DNA of 42,019 nt from a virus: positions 1-42,019 of the IMG/VR virus record IMGVR_UViG_3300046683_000633. One strand, given 5' to 3'. The notes under the pieces were generated by a model. It did no database searches, was not told the origin of the DNA, and saw only the letters and a program-made list of their open reading frames with translations. A program made the translations under genes and the position numbers. Positions 3,516 to 42,019 of the stretch are shown here, one piece after another (position 1 is the stretch's first letter; each line of letters starts with the position of its first letter).

Positions 3516-3538
3516 GCGCTTGCTTTTGAAGAGTTCAA
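3510..3538 (-). promoter_or_regulatory. Candidate sigma70-type promoter for the minus block
   Basis: On the minus strand TTGAAC (3538-3533) and TATATC (3515-3510) are separated by exactly 17 bp, about 40 bp upstream of ATG 3469. The -35 overlaps the TTGAA-gag-TTCAA palindrome, which would suit repression. Confidence 0.6.
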
Positions 3539-3591
3539 GCCTTATTTTGCAATTGTTCAATTTTATCCCAAACCGGAGAAACGACACGAAA

Positions 3592-9850: not shown

Positions 9851-9977
9851 TTGGGGGTGGCGGGTCTGAACCGGAAAGTGGGTACACCCCTGGGTTGTGG
9901 GGCCTCCACAAAATCCGCACGGATACAACCGCGACGCGTTCCCGTTTTGTTCTAAAGTCCATCGTAAGGCCCTTCGG

Positions 9978-10175
9978 ATGTCGACTGCCATAGCCCAGAG
10001 CGACTACGACGACTTCAGCCGGACGCTGACCATAACCTTCACCGACGGCAGCGTGTACGAATACTACGGTGTCCCTCCCGCCGTGTTCCAGGCCGTATCG
10101 AGCGACACCACGTCGAAGGGCACCTACTTCAACCGCGACGTCCGCAAGGCGTACAGCTATTCGAGGATTGGTTGA
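9978..10175 (+). CDS. KTSC-domain protein, 65 aa
   Basis: A short protein spanning one KTSC-like domain. It starts [17 protein letters not shown] and continues [29 protein letters not shown] and [11 protein letters not shown], with the KG-x-YFN-x-x-VR-x-x-Y pattern typical of the family. Such proteins often stand alone in phages; their function is not established and they may bind nucleic acid. The frame is open upstream to 9897, but ATG 9978 is the natural domain start. Confidence 0.75.
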
Positions 10176-10199
10176 CCCTCCGTAAAAATCTTCTATGGT
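10172..10199 (+). promoter_or_regulatory. Candidate promoter of an HNH gene
   Basis: TTGACC (10172-10177) and TATGGT (10194-10199) are separated by 16 bp, directly ahead of ATG 10205. This fits a mobile gene carrying its own promoter. Confidence 0.35.
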
Positions 10200-10204
10200 G
10201 GGCC

Positions 10205-10726
10205 ATGCCTAGAGGTGTCCACTCCAGTCCCCGCAGTTTCAATGTCGTCGATATGTCGGGCCAGACCTTCGGTCGCCTGGCCGTCGTCGAGCGCGCCGGC
10301 ACCTCGCCCGACCGCAAGGCCCTTTGGCGATGCCGCTGCGCCTGCGGCAACTGGCCTGTCGTCAGTGGCAAGGACATGCGTTCCGGCCACGTCCGGTCGT
10401 GCGGCTGCCTCGCTGTCGAGGCCACCGTCCGGCGCAACACCCGACATGGTGGCGCCGGCACTCGTCTCCACGCCATCTGGAAGGACATGCACAAGCGTTG
10501 CCGGCATCATCCGCACTATGCTGGCCGTGTCCACGTCGATCCTGCCTGGGCCAGCTACCCACCTTTCAAGGCGTGGGCCTTGTCGCACGACTACCGCCCC
10601 AACCTCACCCTTGATCGCAAGGATACACTGGGCCACTATTCCCCCGACAATTGCCGTTGGGCGACGCGCAAGGAACAGGCTAACAACCGATACGACCAGC
10701 ATGGCGGCTACACCCCCGCCACCTAG
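10205..10726 (+). CDS. HNH endonuclease, zinc/AP2-like type (copy 1)
   Basis: 173-residue free-standing endonuclease, probably a homing-type nicking or cutting enzyme. The N-terminal module has [14 protein letters not shown], then CRCACG and SCGC, a four-cysteine zinc or DNA-binding knuckle. The C-terminal nuclease has [20 protein letters not shown], with Asp-Arg replacing the first His of HNH as usual in this group, and Asn-Cys-Arg-Trp. The middle YGGRGI element is altered to YAGRVHV. It ends 9 nt before the large terminase ATG and about 110 nt before the P-loop insertion. Confidence 0.85.
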
Positions 10727-10735
10727 GACATGATA

Positions 10736-12211
10736 ATGGCCCAACCCCAAAAGGTCGTGATTGGGTTCAAACCCCAACCCGGTCCTCAAGTCGCATTCCT
10801 CAAAGCCCCCTTTGACGCTGTTATCTATGGAGGCGCAAGAGGCCCCCGACCCCCGCTATTGAGTTAGCGGGGGTCGGGGGTTTCACGAAGAGGAGGAGGA
10901 AAGAGCTACGCCACCTTGGGCGAGTTCTGGCTCCACGCCGAGCGCCACGGCCCCCACGCCCGCGGCCTGATGGTGCGCAAGACCCGCGAGGATTTGAAGG
11001 ACACCATCGAGACCGCCCAGCAGATGTACGGCTCAGCCGCCACCTGGAACGACCAGAAGAAGTTCTTCCGCTTCCAGGGCGGCGCCATGCTCAACATGGC
11101 TTACCTCGAATCCGACTCCGACGCCCAGAACTACCAGGGCTGGTCACTGACCCGCGTCTACGTCGAGGAACTGACGCAATACGCCGACTCCAGGGCGATC
11201 TTCAAGCTGTTCGCCACCCTCAGGAGCGCGGTGCCGGGCATCAAGTGCCAGTTCCGCGCCACCACGAACCCGGGTGGGCCAGGACACGCATGGGTCAAGG
11301 CGTGGGCGATAGACATAGGGCCTATGAACCCCGTCACCGATCCAGTGACAGGTCTCACCCGTGTTTTTATCCCCGCGAAAGTTACTGACAATCCGGCCCT
11401 CCTGAAGAATGATCCCGGTTACATCAATCGCCTCCGCGCCAGCGGCTCCGAACAGTTGGTTCGCGCCTGGCTCGAAGGTGACTGGGATCAGGTGGAGGGT
11501 GCTTTCTTTGATGAGTGGGACCGTAGGCGGCATGTGGTGGAGCCTTTTCGTATTCCGGCGGACTGGGTACGGTTCAGGTCGATGGACTGGGGCTCTGCCA
11601 AGCCTTTTTCGGTGGGTTGGTGGGCGCATGTCCAAGATGATTTCCAGATTCCCGGCACCCGGACCCTGCTGCCTCGCGGAGCAATCGTTCGTTACCGCGA
11701 GTGGTACGGCGCTTCGGCTCCAAACACGGGGCTCAAGCTTCCGGCTGAGATTGTAGGCGCCGGCATTGTCGCCCGTGACAACCGCGAAGACATCGCCTAC
11801 GGGGTGCTGGACCCTAGCGCCTTCGCTGTCGTTTCCGGTCCCAGCGTTGGTGAGACCCTCGGGCGCGCCGGCGCTTTCTTCCGTCGCGCCGACAACGCCC
11901 GCGTCAGTCGCGACAAACGGGCCGGAGGTTGGGATCAATTGCGCGCCCGTTTGCGTGGCGACGCCGACGGCAGGCCGATGATCTATTTCTTCTCGACCTG
12001 CAAGGACAGCATCCGCACACTTCCCATGCAGCAGCATAATGAGAACAATCCGGAAGACCTCGACACCGATAACGAAGATCATGCGGTCGACGAAATTAGG
12101 TACGCCTGCATGTCACGTCCTTTCCGCGCCAGCGGGTTCGAGGTGGTTCACGAAGATCGCAATCCATGGCGGATTTCGAACATGTTCAAGCTGGACGAGC
12201 TTGACTTGTGA
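10736..12211 (+). CDS. Terminase large subunit, split in its P-loop by an in-frame 51-nt element
   Basis: ATP-driven DNA packaging motor and nuclease; 474 residues if the 51-nt insert is skipped. The N-terminus ends in IYGGARG (residues 30-36). The insert follows, and the frame resumes GGGKSYATLGEFW, so the uninterrupted motif would be GARGGGKS (Walker A). VYVEELTQY is Walker B and TTNPGG the coupling motif. SMDWGS, VLDPSAFA and DEDHAVDEI supply the nuclease acidic residues. The insert is a multiple of three and contains one in-frame TAG (10865-10867). No other stop interrupts the gene. It is either recoded, read through, disrupted, or misassembled. Confidence 0.85.
10837..10893 (+). other. 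51-nt hairpin/stop element in the terL Walker A codons
   Basis: Direct repeats AAGAGG at 10837-10842 and 10888-10893 are offset by 51 nt. Between them lies a perfect 16-bp stem (10843-10858 with 10865-10880) with a 6-nt loop. The UAG stop forms the first triplet of the 3' arm. The in-frame codon AGA (10838-10840) is repeated at 10889-10891, so moving from the first AGA to the second gives Gly-Ala-Arg-Gly-Gly-Gly-Lys-Ser. SD-like GAGGAGGAGG starts within the second copy. This resembles a ribosome-bypass element or a small mobile insertion. Confidence 0.85.
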
Positions 12212-12605
12212 AACGCCCCGTGGCCGGATCGCGAACGAGCCTTGCGTGGTATTCCGGGGCGCGGCATCCGGTGTAGTACGTGCCTTGCGTCCTCTTGTCC
12301 TGCTCATTGTCGGGTTGGTCGCCCCACTTCAGGTGCGCCGGGTTGATGCAGGCTTTCACGCCGCAGGTGTGCTGGGCTTGCGGCTTGCCTTCCGGCGCGG
12401 GGCCGTGGACATCCTCGCACAGCAGCTTCGACAGTACGTGGGTTTTGCCGTCGATGGTCCTGCGGGCGTAGCCATTGATGGTGGAATACGGCCAGATCAG
12501 GCAGTCCGAACCGCGATACGTCAGGGCATGTTCCATGAACCGCCGACCGTGGCCGTGCGAAGCCTTTCCACAATTAATGACGGAGCATATGGTGCGAGCG
12601 GACAT
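12186..12605 (-). CDS. HNH endonuclease, HNH_3-like (copy 2, antisense)
   Basis: 139 residues. GSDCLIWPYSTINGYARRTIDG is the strand region, LLCEDVHGPAPEG leads into the first His, and HTCGVKACINPAHLKWG supplies the H-N-H core with its structural cysteines. It sits between large terminase and portal on the opposite strand, and its 3' end overlaps the last 26 nt of terL. ATG 12605 has AGGAGGTCCG, shared exactly with the HNH gene starting at 16029. A GC-rich hairpin (12637-12658) lies just upstream. Confidence 0.85.
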   Translation of the reverse strand: MSARTICSVINCGKASHGHGRRFMEHALTYRGSDCLIWPYSTINGYARRTIDGKTHVLSKLLCEDVHGPAPEGKPQAQHTCGVKACINPAHLKWGDQPDNEQDKRTQGTYYTGCRAPEYHARLVRDPATGRFTSQARPA

Positions 12606-12636
12606 CGGACCTCCTTACAGGTTCGCGTTCAGGCCG

Positions 12637-12658
12637 CGCCGGGGGGCAAATCCCGGCG
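12637..12658. other. Hairpin between HNH copy 2 and portal starts
   Basis: CGCCGGG (12637-12643) pairs with CCCGGCG (12652-12658) around an 8-nt loop, in the divergent space before the portal ATG. There is no T tract. Confidence 0.5.
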
Positions 12659-12688
12659 TGGCCACACCCTATCACCGGGACGAACCTG

Positions 12689-15013
12689 ATGGCCACCAAG
12701 TTCTTCGACGACACCCCGAAAGTCGCCGGCACCATCTCAGCCGAGGCCGGCAAGCCCGACGTGCCGCCGGTCAACCCAAGCGAACCCGATGCCGACCCCA
12801 CCGACGAGGTCGACAGCCAATACTGGGAACGCTGCCTCGCCGATGCCGAGCGCGCCGAGCAGGACTGGCGCCAGCGCGGACGCGAGATCGTCCGCATCTA
12901 CCGCAACGACGGCAGCTACACCGCGCTCAACAAGAAGCGCAACGTCAACGACATCGTCTTCAACATCCTTTTCTCCAACACCGAAGTGATGCTGCCCAAC
13001 ATCTACGCCAACCCGCCGGACCCCGTCGTCCGCTCCCGTTTCATCAAGAAAACCACCCCGGTTCCGCAACCTCCCCCTCTGCCTCCGGCCCCGCCGGCGA
13101 CGGCACCGCCGCCAGGGCCGGGGATGCCGGGTGGACCGCCGGCGGCGGCCCCTCAGGCACCGCCACCGGCGCCACTGCCACCCACTCCGCCGAGCCCCAA
13201 TCTCGGCGTCGACATCAACATCCAGGGCCTGCACCCGCCGCAGCCGCCAGTCCAGCAACCACCACCGCCGCCAACCCCTCCTCCCCCCGAGGAGCCGCCT
13301 CCCCCCTCGATGCCGCCGATGATGCCGGCCCCTCCCCCGCCGGGGATGCCGGACCAGAAGGATGTCGAAACCGCCGCCGCCGTCATGGAAAAGGCGCTCG
13401 GCATCGTCGTCGACGACACCACCAGCCACGAGGCGATCAAGGCCGCCGTCAAGGACATGCTGCTGCCTGGCCGAGGTACTTGCCGTGTCCGCTGGTATCC
13501 GCAACTGCAGTCCCAGCCGGTCGCCGACCCGGTCATGGGCGGCAATCTCTCCCTGCCCGGCCAGCCCACCCCGCAAGGCGACGCCGCGCCGCTGACCGAG
13601 GACGTCAAGATATGGGAGACCGTCAGCGATGAATACGTCTACTGGGAGGACATCCTCTACGATCCCGTCCGCCAGTTCACCGACGGCTCGTGGGTCGCCT
13701 TCCGTCACCTGTTCGACGAGAAATCCCTGCTCGCCGAGTTCGAGGACAGCCAGCAGCTGCAGACGCTCAAGGCCGCCAACAAACTGCAGGACGTGCTGAA
13801 ATGGACCGACGAGAGCGCCGCCAAGTCGGTGGTCGGCGGCGGCAGCCCGATGAAGACCGCCAACAAGCTCGGCGACGTCATCAAGAAGGCGATGGTCTGG
13901 GAAATCTGGAACAAGACCAGGACCGAGGTCATCTGGTTCATTCGCGAAGTCGACGGCCTCGTGCTGCGCGTCGACCCCGACAGCCTCGGTCTTTCCAACT
14001 TCTTCCCCGTCCCCAAGCCGCTGCTGGCCGTCACCACCACCGACTCGATGCTGCCGCGGCCTTACTACGACCTCTACCGCCATCTCGCCGCCGATCTCGA
14101 CGAGACCTCCCGGCAGATTTCGCGCCTCACCGACAAGATCAAGGTCAGGGGCGGCTACAACGCCTCGAACCGCGATATCGCCGCCATCCTGACCGCCGAG
14201 GATGGCAAGATGCTGCCCGTCGCCGGCGTCGATTTGATCAATGGCGGCCTCGCCAATCACATCTGGCTGGTGCCGATCATCGAGTGGGTCAACGCGCTCA
14301 AGGAGCTTTACCTCGCCCGCGAGCAGATCAAGCAGGCGATCTACGAGGTGATGGGCATCTCCGACATCATGCGCGGCAATTCCAACCCCTACGAGACCGC
14401 CACCGCGCAGCGCATCAAGGGCACGATGGGCACCAACCGTCTCGCCGAGCAGAAGCGTGTCTGCGCCAATTTCGCCCGCGAATTACTGCGCATGAAGGCT
14501 GAGATCATCGCCAAGAACTTCGACGCCAGCACCCTTACGCGGATGACCGGCGAGGAGGTCACCCCCGAAGTCGAGGCCATCCTCAGGGACGACTTCCAGC
14601 GCACCTGCTCCATCGACGTCGAGACCGACTCCACCGTCGCCGTCGACGAGCAGGGCGAGCAGGACGCCAACGGCAAGATGATGATGGCCATGCAGGGCAT
14701 CATGCAGGGCGCCGCCGGCCTTCTCCAGGCCGGCATCCTGCCGCCTCCCATGGTGGCGCAGTTCTCGCTCGAACTGATGAAGATGATGTTGCATCCGTTG
14801 AAGAACTCCCGCGGCGTCGTCGAACTGATCGACGACTTCCAGGAGCAGATACAGGCGCTGGCCAAGATGCAGGCCATGCAGCCGCCGCCTCCGCCTGGGC
14901 CACCCCCCGGTGCTGGAGCCGGTCCGCCCGGTGCCCCTCTTACTATCCCGCCGGGCGGGCCGCCGCTGCCGAATGGCGCCGGCCCACCGCCGCCAGGAAT
15001 GCCGATGCAATGA
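12689..15013 (+). CDS. Portal protein with a long polyproline insert
   Basis: 774 residues; ring-shaped head-tail connector through which DNA passes. The N-terminus (DSQYWERCLADAERAEQDWR, NVNDIVFNILFSNTEVMLPN) and the core (WEDILYDPVRQFTDGSWVAF, YNASNRDIAAILTAEDG, YEVMGISDIMRGNSNPYETA) match podovirus-style portals. Residues 124-221 are an extraordinary Pro-rich segment (PQPPPLPPAPP, QQPPPPPTPPPP), and the C-terminus is again Pro/Gly-rich. The rest is of normal portal length. ATG 12689 is upstream-isolated by the HNH insertion. The stop overlaps the next ATG (ATGA). Confidence 0.88.
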   Translation: MATKFFDDTPKVAGTISAEAGKPDVPPVNPSEPDADPTDEVDSQYWERCLADAERAEQDWRQRGREIVRIYRNDGSYTALNKKRNVNDIVFNILFSNTEVMLPNIYANPPDPVVRSRFIKKTTPVPQPPPLPPAPPATAPPPGPGMPGGPPAAAPQAPPPAPLPPTPPSPNLGVDINIQGLHPPQPPVQQPPPPPTPPPPEEPPPPSMPPMMPAPPPPGMPDQKDVETAAAVMEKALGIVVDDTTSHEAIKAAVKDMLLPGRGTCRVRWYPQLQSQPVADPVMGGNLSLPGQPTPQGDAAPLTEDVKIWETVSDEYVYWEDILYDPVRQFTDGSWVAFRHLFDEKSLLAEFEDSQQLQTLKAANKLQDVLKWTDESAAKSVVGGGSPMKTANKLGDVIKKAMVWEIWNKTRTEVIWFIREVDGLVLRVDPDSLGLSNFFPVPKPLLAVTTTDSMLPRPYYDLYRHLAADLDETSRQISRLTDKIKVRGGYNASNRDIAAILTAEDGKMLPVAGVDLINGGLANHIWLVPIIEWVNALKELYLAREQIKQAIYEVMGISDIMRGNSNPYETATAQRIKGTMGTNRLAEQKRVCANFARELLRMKAEIIAKNFDASTLTRMTGEEVTPEVEAILRDDFQRTCSIDVETDSTVAVDEQGEQDANGKMMMAMQGIMQGAAGLLQAGILPPPMVAQFSLELMKMMLHPLKNSRGVVELIDDFQEQIQALAKMQAMQPPPPPGPPPGAGAGPPGAPLTIPPGGPPLPNGAGPPPPGMPMQ

Positions 15014-28865: not shown

Positions 28866-28911
28866 CAGAGGGAATGTTAGTATGCTGCTCTCGTTCATAA
28901 CGGAGAGCCAA

Positions 28912-29412
28912 ATGCCAAAACCCCCTGAATTAATCGGGCAGACTTTCGGTCGCCTGACCGTCCTCGCTCGTGTCGGAAGTGACAAGAACGGTCATGCTTT
29001 GTGGCGGTGTCTCTGCACATGCGGCGCTGAGAGCACTACACGCACCAACGCGCTTCGAATGGGTGTGGCAACATCATGCGGTTGCTACAACCGCGAGGTT
29101 TCTCGAAACCAGAAAACCAACTTCCGTCATGGACACGCTGTTCGTGGTCGCTGGACGACTGAATATCGAATTTGGGCGGGTATGCATTCCCGCTGCTCGA
29201 CCCCTTCCGCATCCGGTTACGAATATTACGGCGGCAGGGGCATAAAAGTTTGTGAACGGTGGCGGTCGTTTGAGAATTTTCTATCGGATATGGGCTTTCG
29301 CCCCAGCGGACTGACGCTGGACCGCATCGATACTTACGGAAATTACGAGCCCGGAAACTGTCGATGGGCAACAACTGCGGAACAAGCCCGGAACCGTAGG
29401 GCACGGAGTTAG
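28912..29412 (+). CDS. HNH endonuclease, zinc/AP2-like type (copy 7)
   Basis: 166 residues: [22 protein letters not shown] and SCGC knuckle, [13 protein letters not shown] centre, [18 protein letters not shown] core. All family landmarks are intact. Co-oriented with the late genes and set between the virion lysozyme and an internal virion protein. ATG 28912 with GGAG is preferred over 28882. A possible own promoter (TTGGAC and TAGTAT, spacing 16) overlaps the end of the lysozyme gene. Confidence 0.88.
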
Positions 29413-31870: not shown

Positions 31871-31922
31871 TTTGTGGCCCCGCATATAGGCCATCTCTCC
31901 CAAGACTTCAAGGGAGTGCTTG

Positions 31923-32582
31923 ATGCCGACGCAGCAGGACTGGATGGAAGCCCAGAAGCAGCGCATGGCGCCGCAAACCCCCGACACCATCGGGCGGATG
32001 CTGATGGGCATGTTGTACCAAAATCCATCCTTTGTCATAGTGCAGTCCCAACTGGAAGAGGGACTTATGACTGCACTTATCGACATTACCGGACAACGAT
32101 TTGGTCGTCTGACAGCACTGGCTTGCGTGGGCATAGCGCCCTCCAGAAGCGCGTTGTGGCGGTGCCGCTGCGATTGCGGCGGCATTACCGTGGTAGCGGG
32201 GATTACCCTGCGCAGCGGGCACACGAAGTCCTGCGGCTGCCTGCGAGACGAGAAAATCAGCAACGTCAAACGACGTCATAACGGGGTTGGCACCCGGATA
32301 TATCGCATCTGGAAAGGGCTGCGCGCCCGATGCCTCAGCCGCACGAACGTGCGTTACATGGATTATGGCGGACGCGGCATCATGGTATGCCCAGAGTGGT
32401 CTGATTTCAGCGTCTTTCGTGATTGGGCTGTGGCCAACGGCTACGCGGATGATCTCAGCATCGACCGGATCGATAACGATGGGCCGTACGCCCCCGGCAA
32501 TTGCCGATGGGCTACGGCGCGTCAACAACGCTTAAACTCACGACCGAAGGTCAAAAAGCGGAGTAATTTTAATGCCTTATGA
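31923..32582 (+). CDS. HNH endonuclease fused to a 48-residue leader (copy 8)
   Basis: From ATG 32067 there is a complete 171-residue HNH enzyme: DITGQRFGRLTALACVG, CRCDCG and SCGC knuckle, DYGGRGIMVCPEW, SIDRIDNDGPYAPGNCRW. Upstream in the same frame lies MPTQQDWMEAQKQRMAPQTP with MLMGMLYQNPS from ATG 31923, which has its own GGGAG site. That part looks like the beginning of a small virion gene cut by the insertion. A candidate promoter (TTGTAC and CATAGT, 17 bp apart, 32013-32041) precedes ATG 32067. The 3' end overlaps the tail fibre start by 11 nt. Confidence 0.82.
   Translation: MPTQQDWMEAQKQRMAPQTPDTIGRMLMGMLYQNPSFVIVQSQLEEGLMTALIDITGQRFGRLTALACVGIAPSRSALWRCRCDCGGITVVAGITLRSGHTKSCGCLRDEKISNVKRRHNGVGTRIYRIWKGLRARCLSRTNVRYMDYGGRGIMVCPEWSDFSVFRDWAVANGYADDLSIDRIDNDGPYAPGNCRWATARQQRLNSRPKVKKRSNFNAL
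32013..32041 (+). promoter_or_regulatory. Candidate promoter of HNH copy 8
   Basis: TTGTAC (32013-32018) and CATAGT (32036-32041) are 17 bp apart and 26 bp before ATG 32067. Confidence 0.35.
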
Positions 32583-41901: not shown

Positions 41902-42019
41902 CTAGTCAAACAGCGCCGAAAAGTCGGCGGCCTTTCGTTGCAGAATCCGGGATATGCGGTCGTCGATGGTGCCGTGCGCGGTCAGGAAGCGGGCGACGAC
42001 GGCTTCGCGCTGGCCGATG
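41902..42019 (-). CDS. SNF2-type helicase, C-terminal part
   Basis: Continuation of the gene that leaves the window at base 1. It reads IGQREAVVARFLTAHGTIDD then RISRILQRKAADFSALFD and stops at TAG 41902. It overlaps the left-end copy over 48 bases, with Arg in place of Ser after IGQ. Together with 49-1256 it gives a complete protein of about 441 residues. Confidence 0.88.
   Translation of the reverse strand, partial: IGQREAVVARFLTAHGTIDDRISRILQRKAADFSALFD
41972..42019. repeat. Right copy of the terminal overlap
   Basis: Matches 1-48 with 3 mismatches; see the left copy. Shows that the sequence is a circular or permuted map opened within the helicase gene. Confidence 0.85.

Follow-up and report, generated by a model that had tools for sequence, protein, structure and literature searches.

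The window (the whole 42,019-nucleotide stretch analyzed here) derives from a soil phage with a 51-letter hairpin in its DNA-packaging motor gene, terL, adjoining a homing endonuclease gene. The more probable account, in our view, is that these belong to a free-standing HNH homing cassette, with terL shielded by an insert that would be skipped through translational bypassing of the T4 mobA/gene 60 kind. The cassette is well supported by the insert, its three recurrent forms, their linkage to HNH genes, the absence of the cassette from a close relative, the border of a divergent tract, and a common register; we further infer that the HNH protein cleaves at the P-loop, that the insert protects against this, and that ribosomes bypass it. 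A sequence-only reading had proposed bypassing, or a mobile element tolerated by recoding, or both, and with an HNH gene found upstream and three versions of the element known this stands as the best reading.

An insert in the P-loop codons of terL

The first segment of terL (10736-10843, plus strand; 36 codons from ATG 10736) reads MAQPQKVVIGFKPQPGPQVAFLKAPFDAVIYGGARG up to 10843 and ends ...GGARG, in the codons GGA GGC GCA AGA GGC. The P-loop is completed by GGA GGA AAG AGC from 10895, where the second segment begins (10895-12211, plus strand; 438 codons, GGKS onward), and we confirm that one frame is shared by both sides of the 51 nt (10844-10894) lying between the GARG and GGKS codons. The second segment is that of a terminase large subunit (Terminase_6N above the gathering score; phrog_2; dN/dS of 0.09 versus L002), and the 36 and 438 codons together make 474, the length of the intact TerL of L008. 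The window has one terL, and the rest of it resembles a full phage genome. Its two ends, 1-50 and 41970-42019, resemble each other over about 50 bases without being identical, and may be a repeat that has diverged.

The 51 nt contain most of a perfect hairpin (10843-10880, plus strand) with 100% complementary arms at 10843-10858 and 10865-10880; the 16-bp stem, the 6-nt loop, and the UAG (10865-10867, in the first segment's frame) are all as first described. No other perfect hairpin in the 42-kb window is as long: its 16 bp compare with maxima of 9-12 bp in 20 first-order Markov shuffles, and it folds with z = -9.8. An intrinsic terminator was considered and set aside: none is called at the site, and no T-run follows the stem in the corresponding elements of loci L058 and L009.

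TerL relatives were collected from IMG/VR and GTDB by patterns located downstream of the P-loop, and the P-loop is intact in 102 of 106 distinct loci. This agrees with the prediction that omission of the 51 nt yields the canonical GARGGGKS, and with the close relative L002 free of the insert it provides the clean presence and absence among relatives that had been suggested as a check. The other four loci are interrupted at the same site, each by a hairpin with a UAG: the window and L014 by 51 nt, L058 by 43 nt, and L009 by 40 nt. Three different inserts are therefore represented, the L014 insert being the same as that of the window letter for letter, in another assembly. The 40-nt insert of L009 occurs in two assemblies (99.97% identical across 3.2 kb), and the 43-nt insert of L058 was first detected by a scan for interrupted P-loops, in which it was the one new case, the remaining new matches being chance occurrences in unrelated sequence. 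GTDB genomes yielded one TerL only, which is distant and intact, and a hairpin-pattern scan of IMG/VR returned 27 contigs that, beyond the terL cases, are apparently intergenic, mostly with T-rich tails.

The inserts of L058 and L009 shift the frame, and the 51 nt are a multiple of three; exact omission of the insert restores a canonical P-loop in all four loci. The second segments of the interrupted genes are full-length and open, with dN/dS values of 0.03 to 0.12, which may mostly reflect the time before insertion. Through a 39-nt in-frame deletion (L014 about 3530-3570), 13 residues belonging to the conserved W..(V/I)EGAFF motif are missing from the L014 TerL; this could mark a pseudogene, an assembly error, or a tolerated variant, and the L014 TerL may be dead.

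HNH genes and divergent tracts around terL

Directly upstream of terL is an HNH endonuclease ORF, HNH1 (10172-10726, plus strand; phrog_374, E=4.1e-48), which starts at TTG 10172 or at the in-frame ATG 10205. It falls below the Pfam report threshold, and an HNH profile searched against PDB gave nothing at 0.01. A second HNH gene, HNH2 (12186-12605, minus strand), stands at the end of terL and is of a different family (phrog_1872 endonuclease, E=6.5e-17), the same as that of the L058 HNH, to which it is 38% identical.

A sense HNH ORF lies immediately upstream of terL in all four interrupted loci and in one of the 85 intact loci whose upstream sequence could be read (Fisher p = 2e-6); adding three antisense HNH genes (L164, L167, and L169) and an HNH gene one gene further upstream in L008 gives p = 5e-5. 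These counts are incompletely independent, because the window and L014 have a common cassette. The HNH proteins of L014 and L009 are related to HNH1 (85% and 65%, respectively), and that of L058 comes from another HNH family; such pairings of an HNH gene with an insert in three distantly related forms suggest a selfish cassette. The sole intact locus with a sense HNH gene directly upstream is L174, in which the HNH (1932-2381) is 72% identical to that of L058; its uninterrupted P-loop counts against the cassette account. The L174 P-loop codons are unusual, though synonymous (TAT GGA GGC GCG AGA GGT GGT GGT AAA, with GGA there in 1 of 99), and we would guess that they protect L174, as another way of self-protection.

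In the loci around 80 HNH relatives, no additional case of a hairpin within a gene was recognized. We note, however, a perfect 14-bp hairpin (AATGCCAGCGAGCGAGACACGAACGCTCGCTGGCATT) at L269 777-813, within a stretch matching the HNH query, which may be another hairpin insert. Cultured phages have many HNH relatives, and the two nearest rhizobial ones, when checked, do not adjoin terL.

Comparison with L002 (record G001), a close relative with about 91-100% identity across much of the window, is informative about how the cassette may have arrived. L002 has no HNH gene at the place of HNH1, lacks HNH2 and a further window gene, HNH3, and has no terL insert. Identity between the two is about 92% up to 10173, 75-80% in the first terL segment, and about 96% between the insert's end and 11210, and from this jump it follows that the divergent tract stops at the insert. 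Such a border would be expected if a cassette donor had served to repair a break in a recipient's P-loop. Identity to L002 falls again, to about 72%, over about 11250-12211 (flanks of 93-96%), and this second divergent tract leads into the minus-strand HNH2; the region 11250-12605 has the look of another homing tract, separate from the first. From the start of the HNH gene through the insert, L014 matches the window, and its codons past the insert (AGC GGC GGT AAG AGC TAC GCG ACG CTG) are nearer to those of L002. The insert is unchanged between the window and L014 despite divergence of the adjoining HNH genes.

Two other HNH genes of the window lie away from terL. HNH3 (28882-29412; phrog_374, E=9e-66) is the third, a clean insertion of ~550 bp between two intact genes; it is not present in G001, and no hairpin insert was recognized in the genes flanking it. 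The ORF of the fourth (31920-32582) opens with the first codons of a G001 283-aa ORF (LMPTQQDWMEAQKQRMAPQTPDTIGRMLMGM), replacing the remainder.

As we envisage the cycle, the HNH endonuclease would act on the terL of related phages, at the conserved codons for the Walker A motif (P-loop). In the carrier, the hairpin insert would shield terL by interrupting that target site, and when a recipient that had been cut was repaired, the HNH gene, the start of terL, and the insert would be copied together. Carriers of free-standing homing endonucleases are commonly protected by divergence of the target sequence, whereas here protection would come from an insert that must be skipped. The arrangement is otherwise like intronless homing by free-standing HNH endonucleases (PMC2988022), with an HNH gene adjoining a conserved gene, presence and absence in close relatives, and divergent tracts.

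A common register and putative bypassing

The three element types have the same geometry when aligned from a glycine codon, GGY. The window element reads GGC CCC CGA CCC CCG CTA TTG AGT TAG CGG GGG, that of L058 reads GGT CTT TTG CCC CCG CTG CTC AGG TAG CGG GGG, and that of L009 reads GGT GCC CTG CCC CCT CTG CTT CGG TAG AGG GGG, so that in each the GGY is followed by 6 nt and then the hairpin core, with UAG eight codons beyond GGY. Each element type has its own 6-nt spacer sequence, and the predicted helix of the window takes in the GGC as well. The hairpin cores align without gaps; one stem pair has both its bases changed (G-C to U-A), and a G.U wobble is kept in two elements, its U being part of the UAG. 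With three sequences, and values not above those of shuffles, these stem-pair changes are suggestive only. The stretch from the UAG to the landing site varies (24, 16, and 13 nt), and this varying 3' part accounts for the net lengths of 51, 43, and 40 nt. The GGY is the third P-loop glycine in L009 and the first in the others, which indicates that the register follows GGY, wherever in the P-loop this lies.

These features bear on where a ribosome might leave and rejoin the message. The AAGAGG repeats said to bound the element are present in the window (10837 and 10888), but the downstream copy is not in L014, which has the same insert. Likewise, the AGA codons at 10838-10840 and 10889-10891 stand where they were placed, but their pairing as matched take-off and landing codons is not upheld: the AGA pair occurs only in the window and L014, and an AGA-to-AGA hop misfits L058 and L009 and would leave L014 with GGARSGGKS, whereas take-off at GGY with landing on the triplet preceding the resume codon would give GGARGGGK[ST] in all four loci. 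A glycine codon is thus the more likely take-off site, in the window GGC 10841-10843, and the canonical P-loop of relatives points to GGA 10892-10894 as the landing triplet, with decoding resuming at 10895. The GGY and landing triplets are synonymous in L058 (GGT/GGC), and are GGC/GGA in the window, GGC/AGC in L014, and GGT/AGC in L009, the AGC triplets of L014 and L009 matching GGY at two positions only.

In the proposed mechanism, the hairpin would pause the ribosome with peptidyl-tRNA-Gly on GGC 10841 in the P site; the ribosome would release the mRNA, slide across the gap, and re-engage at the triplet just ahead of 10895 to give GGARGGGKS and a viable phage, and ribosomes that do not hop would be released at the in-frame UAG. 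A fixed distance between hairpin and GGY, together with a loose 3' part, suits a take-off set by a hairpin pause and a flexible landing. Several observations count against bypassing. First, the UAG is not beside the take-off codon in any of the three types; the likeness to T4 drawn earlier on this point does not hold, as the stop comes only at the eighth codon past the glycine. Second, the SD-like run noticed at the landing site, GAGGAGGAGG, is present at the downstream edge of the window insert, overlapping the proposed landing triplet, but is not common to the other copies; L014 has AAGAAGCGGCGG instead, and nothing comparable precedes landing in L058 or L009. Third, no KKYK-like nascent peptide was seen, the first segment being the TerL N-terminus usual in relatives that lack the insert, although it could hold a nascent-peptide signal of an unrecognized kind. 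Fourth, two of the landing triplets are imperfect; on this point a title cited in PMC3014915 states that minimal conventional pairing can suffice.

The comparison with T4 is nonetheless close in several respects. In T4 gene 60, whose bypass and associated mobA have been described (PMC3014915, PMC11194080, PMC5009743), the HNH gene (mobA) is likewise upstream of the interrupted gene, and the insert is early in an essential ATPase gene (codon 46/47 in T4, 36/37 in the window). The gaps are similar (50 nt versus 51, 43, and 40 nt here), and the T4 gap follows a Gly codon, GGA, and carries a UAG and a hairpin at the take-off region, comparable to GGY, UAG, and hairpin here; the UUCG hairpin loop of T4 is also that of L009. 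T4 sliding is processive to 56 nt (PMC11194080), and inserts of 40-51 nt are within this range. A review (PMC5009743) considers that the T4 insert may have protected against the endonuclease. The differences are that another gene is concerned and the sequences are unrelated, that the UAG is adjacent to take-off in T4 and 8 codons after it here, that the hairpin here is 6 nt downstream and much more stable, that the landing triplets are imperfectly matched with no SD or KKYK-like signal found, and that for these phages the bypass is putative.

Other systems share some of these features. The mitochondria of Magnusiomyces capitatus (PMC5009743) have short coding inserts avoided at translation, also with imperfect take-off and landing matches, but at 81 mitochondrial sites with no linked endonuclease known, and in a manner described as independent of mRNA context. 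In Streptomyces phage Hau3 (PMC5009743), a terminase gene has been proposed to be read by bypassing, but across a far shorter gap at a UUA codon and with a proposed regulatory role, not as the bypass of an insert. Mycobacteriophage Corndog (PMC4351075) has an HNH gene beside a tape-measure gene that possibly needs bypassing, but there a noncoding gap lies ahead of the gene start, and a noncanonical ACG start is equally possible.

A literature search, with most subscription papers outside its reach, found no terminase described as carrying such an insert, hairpin or bypass, in its P-loop. To our knowledge, phage T4 gene 60 has hitherto been essentially the one example of an HNH gene combined with a bypass insert. 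For decades it has also been almost the sole case of efficient long-range bypassing on an mRNA of bacteria or phages, and that a homing endonuclease accompanies it might have been chance. If our account is correct, three more element types in an essential motor gene, with a function open to checking, would make endonuclease plus bypass insert a recurring strategy; as they differ naturally in the length and frame of the gap, in the hairpin, and in the landing codon, they would also offer tests of the rules of ribosome sliding. We regard as evenly balanced the stronger claim that these are a second HNH-linked bypass cassette lineage, acting on Walker A codons, with at least three element types, two endonuclease families, and bypass signals unlike those of T4, namely a hairpin at a fixed distance from a Gly codon, a delayed fail-safe UAG, and a loosely matched landing with no adjacent stop. 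If this claim holds, homing endonucleases would have used bypass inserts repeatedly for immunity, and T4 would not be a lone curiosity.

Competing explanations

An alternative that we consider unlikely, yet which has the most in its favor, is that the protective hairpin is purely selfish and destroys terL, with no recoding; packaging would then depend on the TerL of co-infecting relatives, or the phages would be dead ends. This stays alive because the L014 TerL is without 13 conserved residues; in addition, recoding is so far a deduction from the sequences, and the 40- and 43-nt inserts would abolish TerL unless recoded. Harder to reconcile with loss of the gene are a window that has no second terL and is otherwise like a full phage genome, one GGY-hairpin-UAG register in three elements, second segments that are open and constrained, and the constancy of the insert in the window and L014 while the adjoining HNH genes diverged.

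Excision of the insert from the terL mRNA prior to translation, whether the hairpin is processed and the ends ligated or the insert is what remains of an intron, fits the exact restoration of the P-loop in four of four loci equally with bypassing. We nonetheless think it improbable: no Rfam family, group I/II introns included, was found at threshold, nor any intron family at E<=1 over 9900-12700 in a search for a catalytic group I/II core, and the placement of the UAG at a constant distance from GGY suggests a meaning for the ribosome. Moreover, 40-51 nt is far below the size of self-splicing introns.

Very improbable is a split terminase, in which the second segment is internally initiated and the two pieces cooperate. 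HNH genes are known to split genes, T4 genes 39/60 being an example (PMC2988022), and in L058 a frame from ATG 7142 passes through the insert into terL to give ...STTGGGKT; the corresponding frame of L009 gives GGKPSKS, however, and the first start codon past the UAG in the window, TTG 10916, is beyond the Walker A lysine.

Readthrough of the UAG, adding 17 residues to the P-loop, is conceivable for the window and L014, where the insert is a multiple of three and the UAG its sole stop, but as the inserts of L058 and L009 are out of frame it is no general solution, and 17 residues within GGARGGGKS would break Walker A; we give this reading almost no credence. As for the artefact of assembly or sequencing once thought possible, GC-rich hairpins are difficult to sequence and one contig, L001, starts exactly at this P-loop spot (L001 1-20), but the same 51 nt stand between diverged flanks in L014, from another assembly, the 40-nt insert is found in two assemblies, and the inserts are linked to HNH genes, and this recurrence in independent assemblies makes an artefact very unlikely. 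The L001 contig is 98-100% identical to the window from 12689 onward, and its terL is the other allele, with 79.6% identity to that of the window and 98.9% to that of L002.
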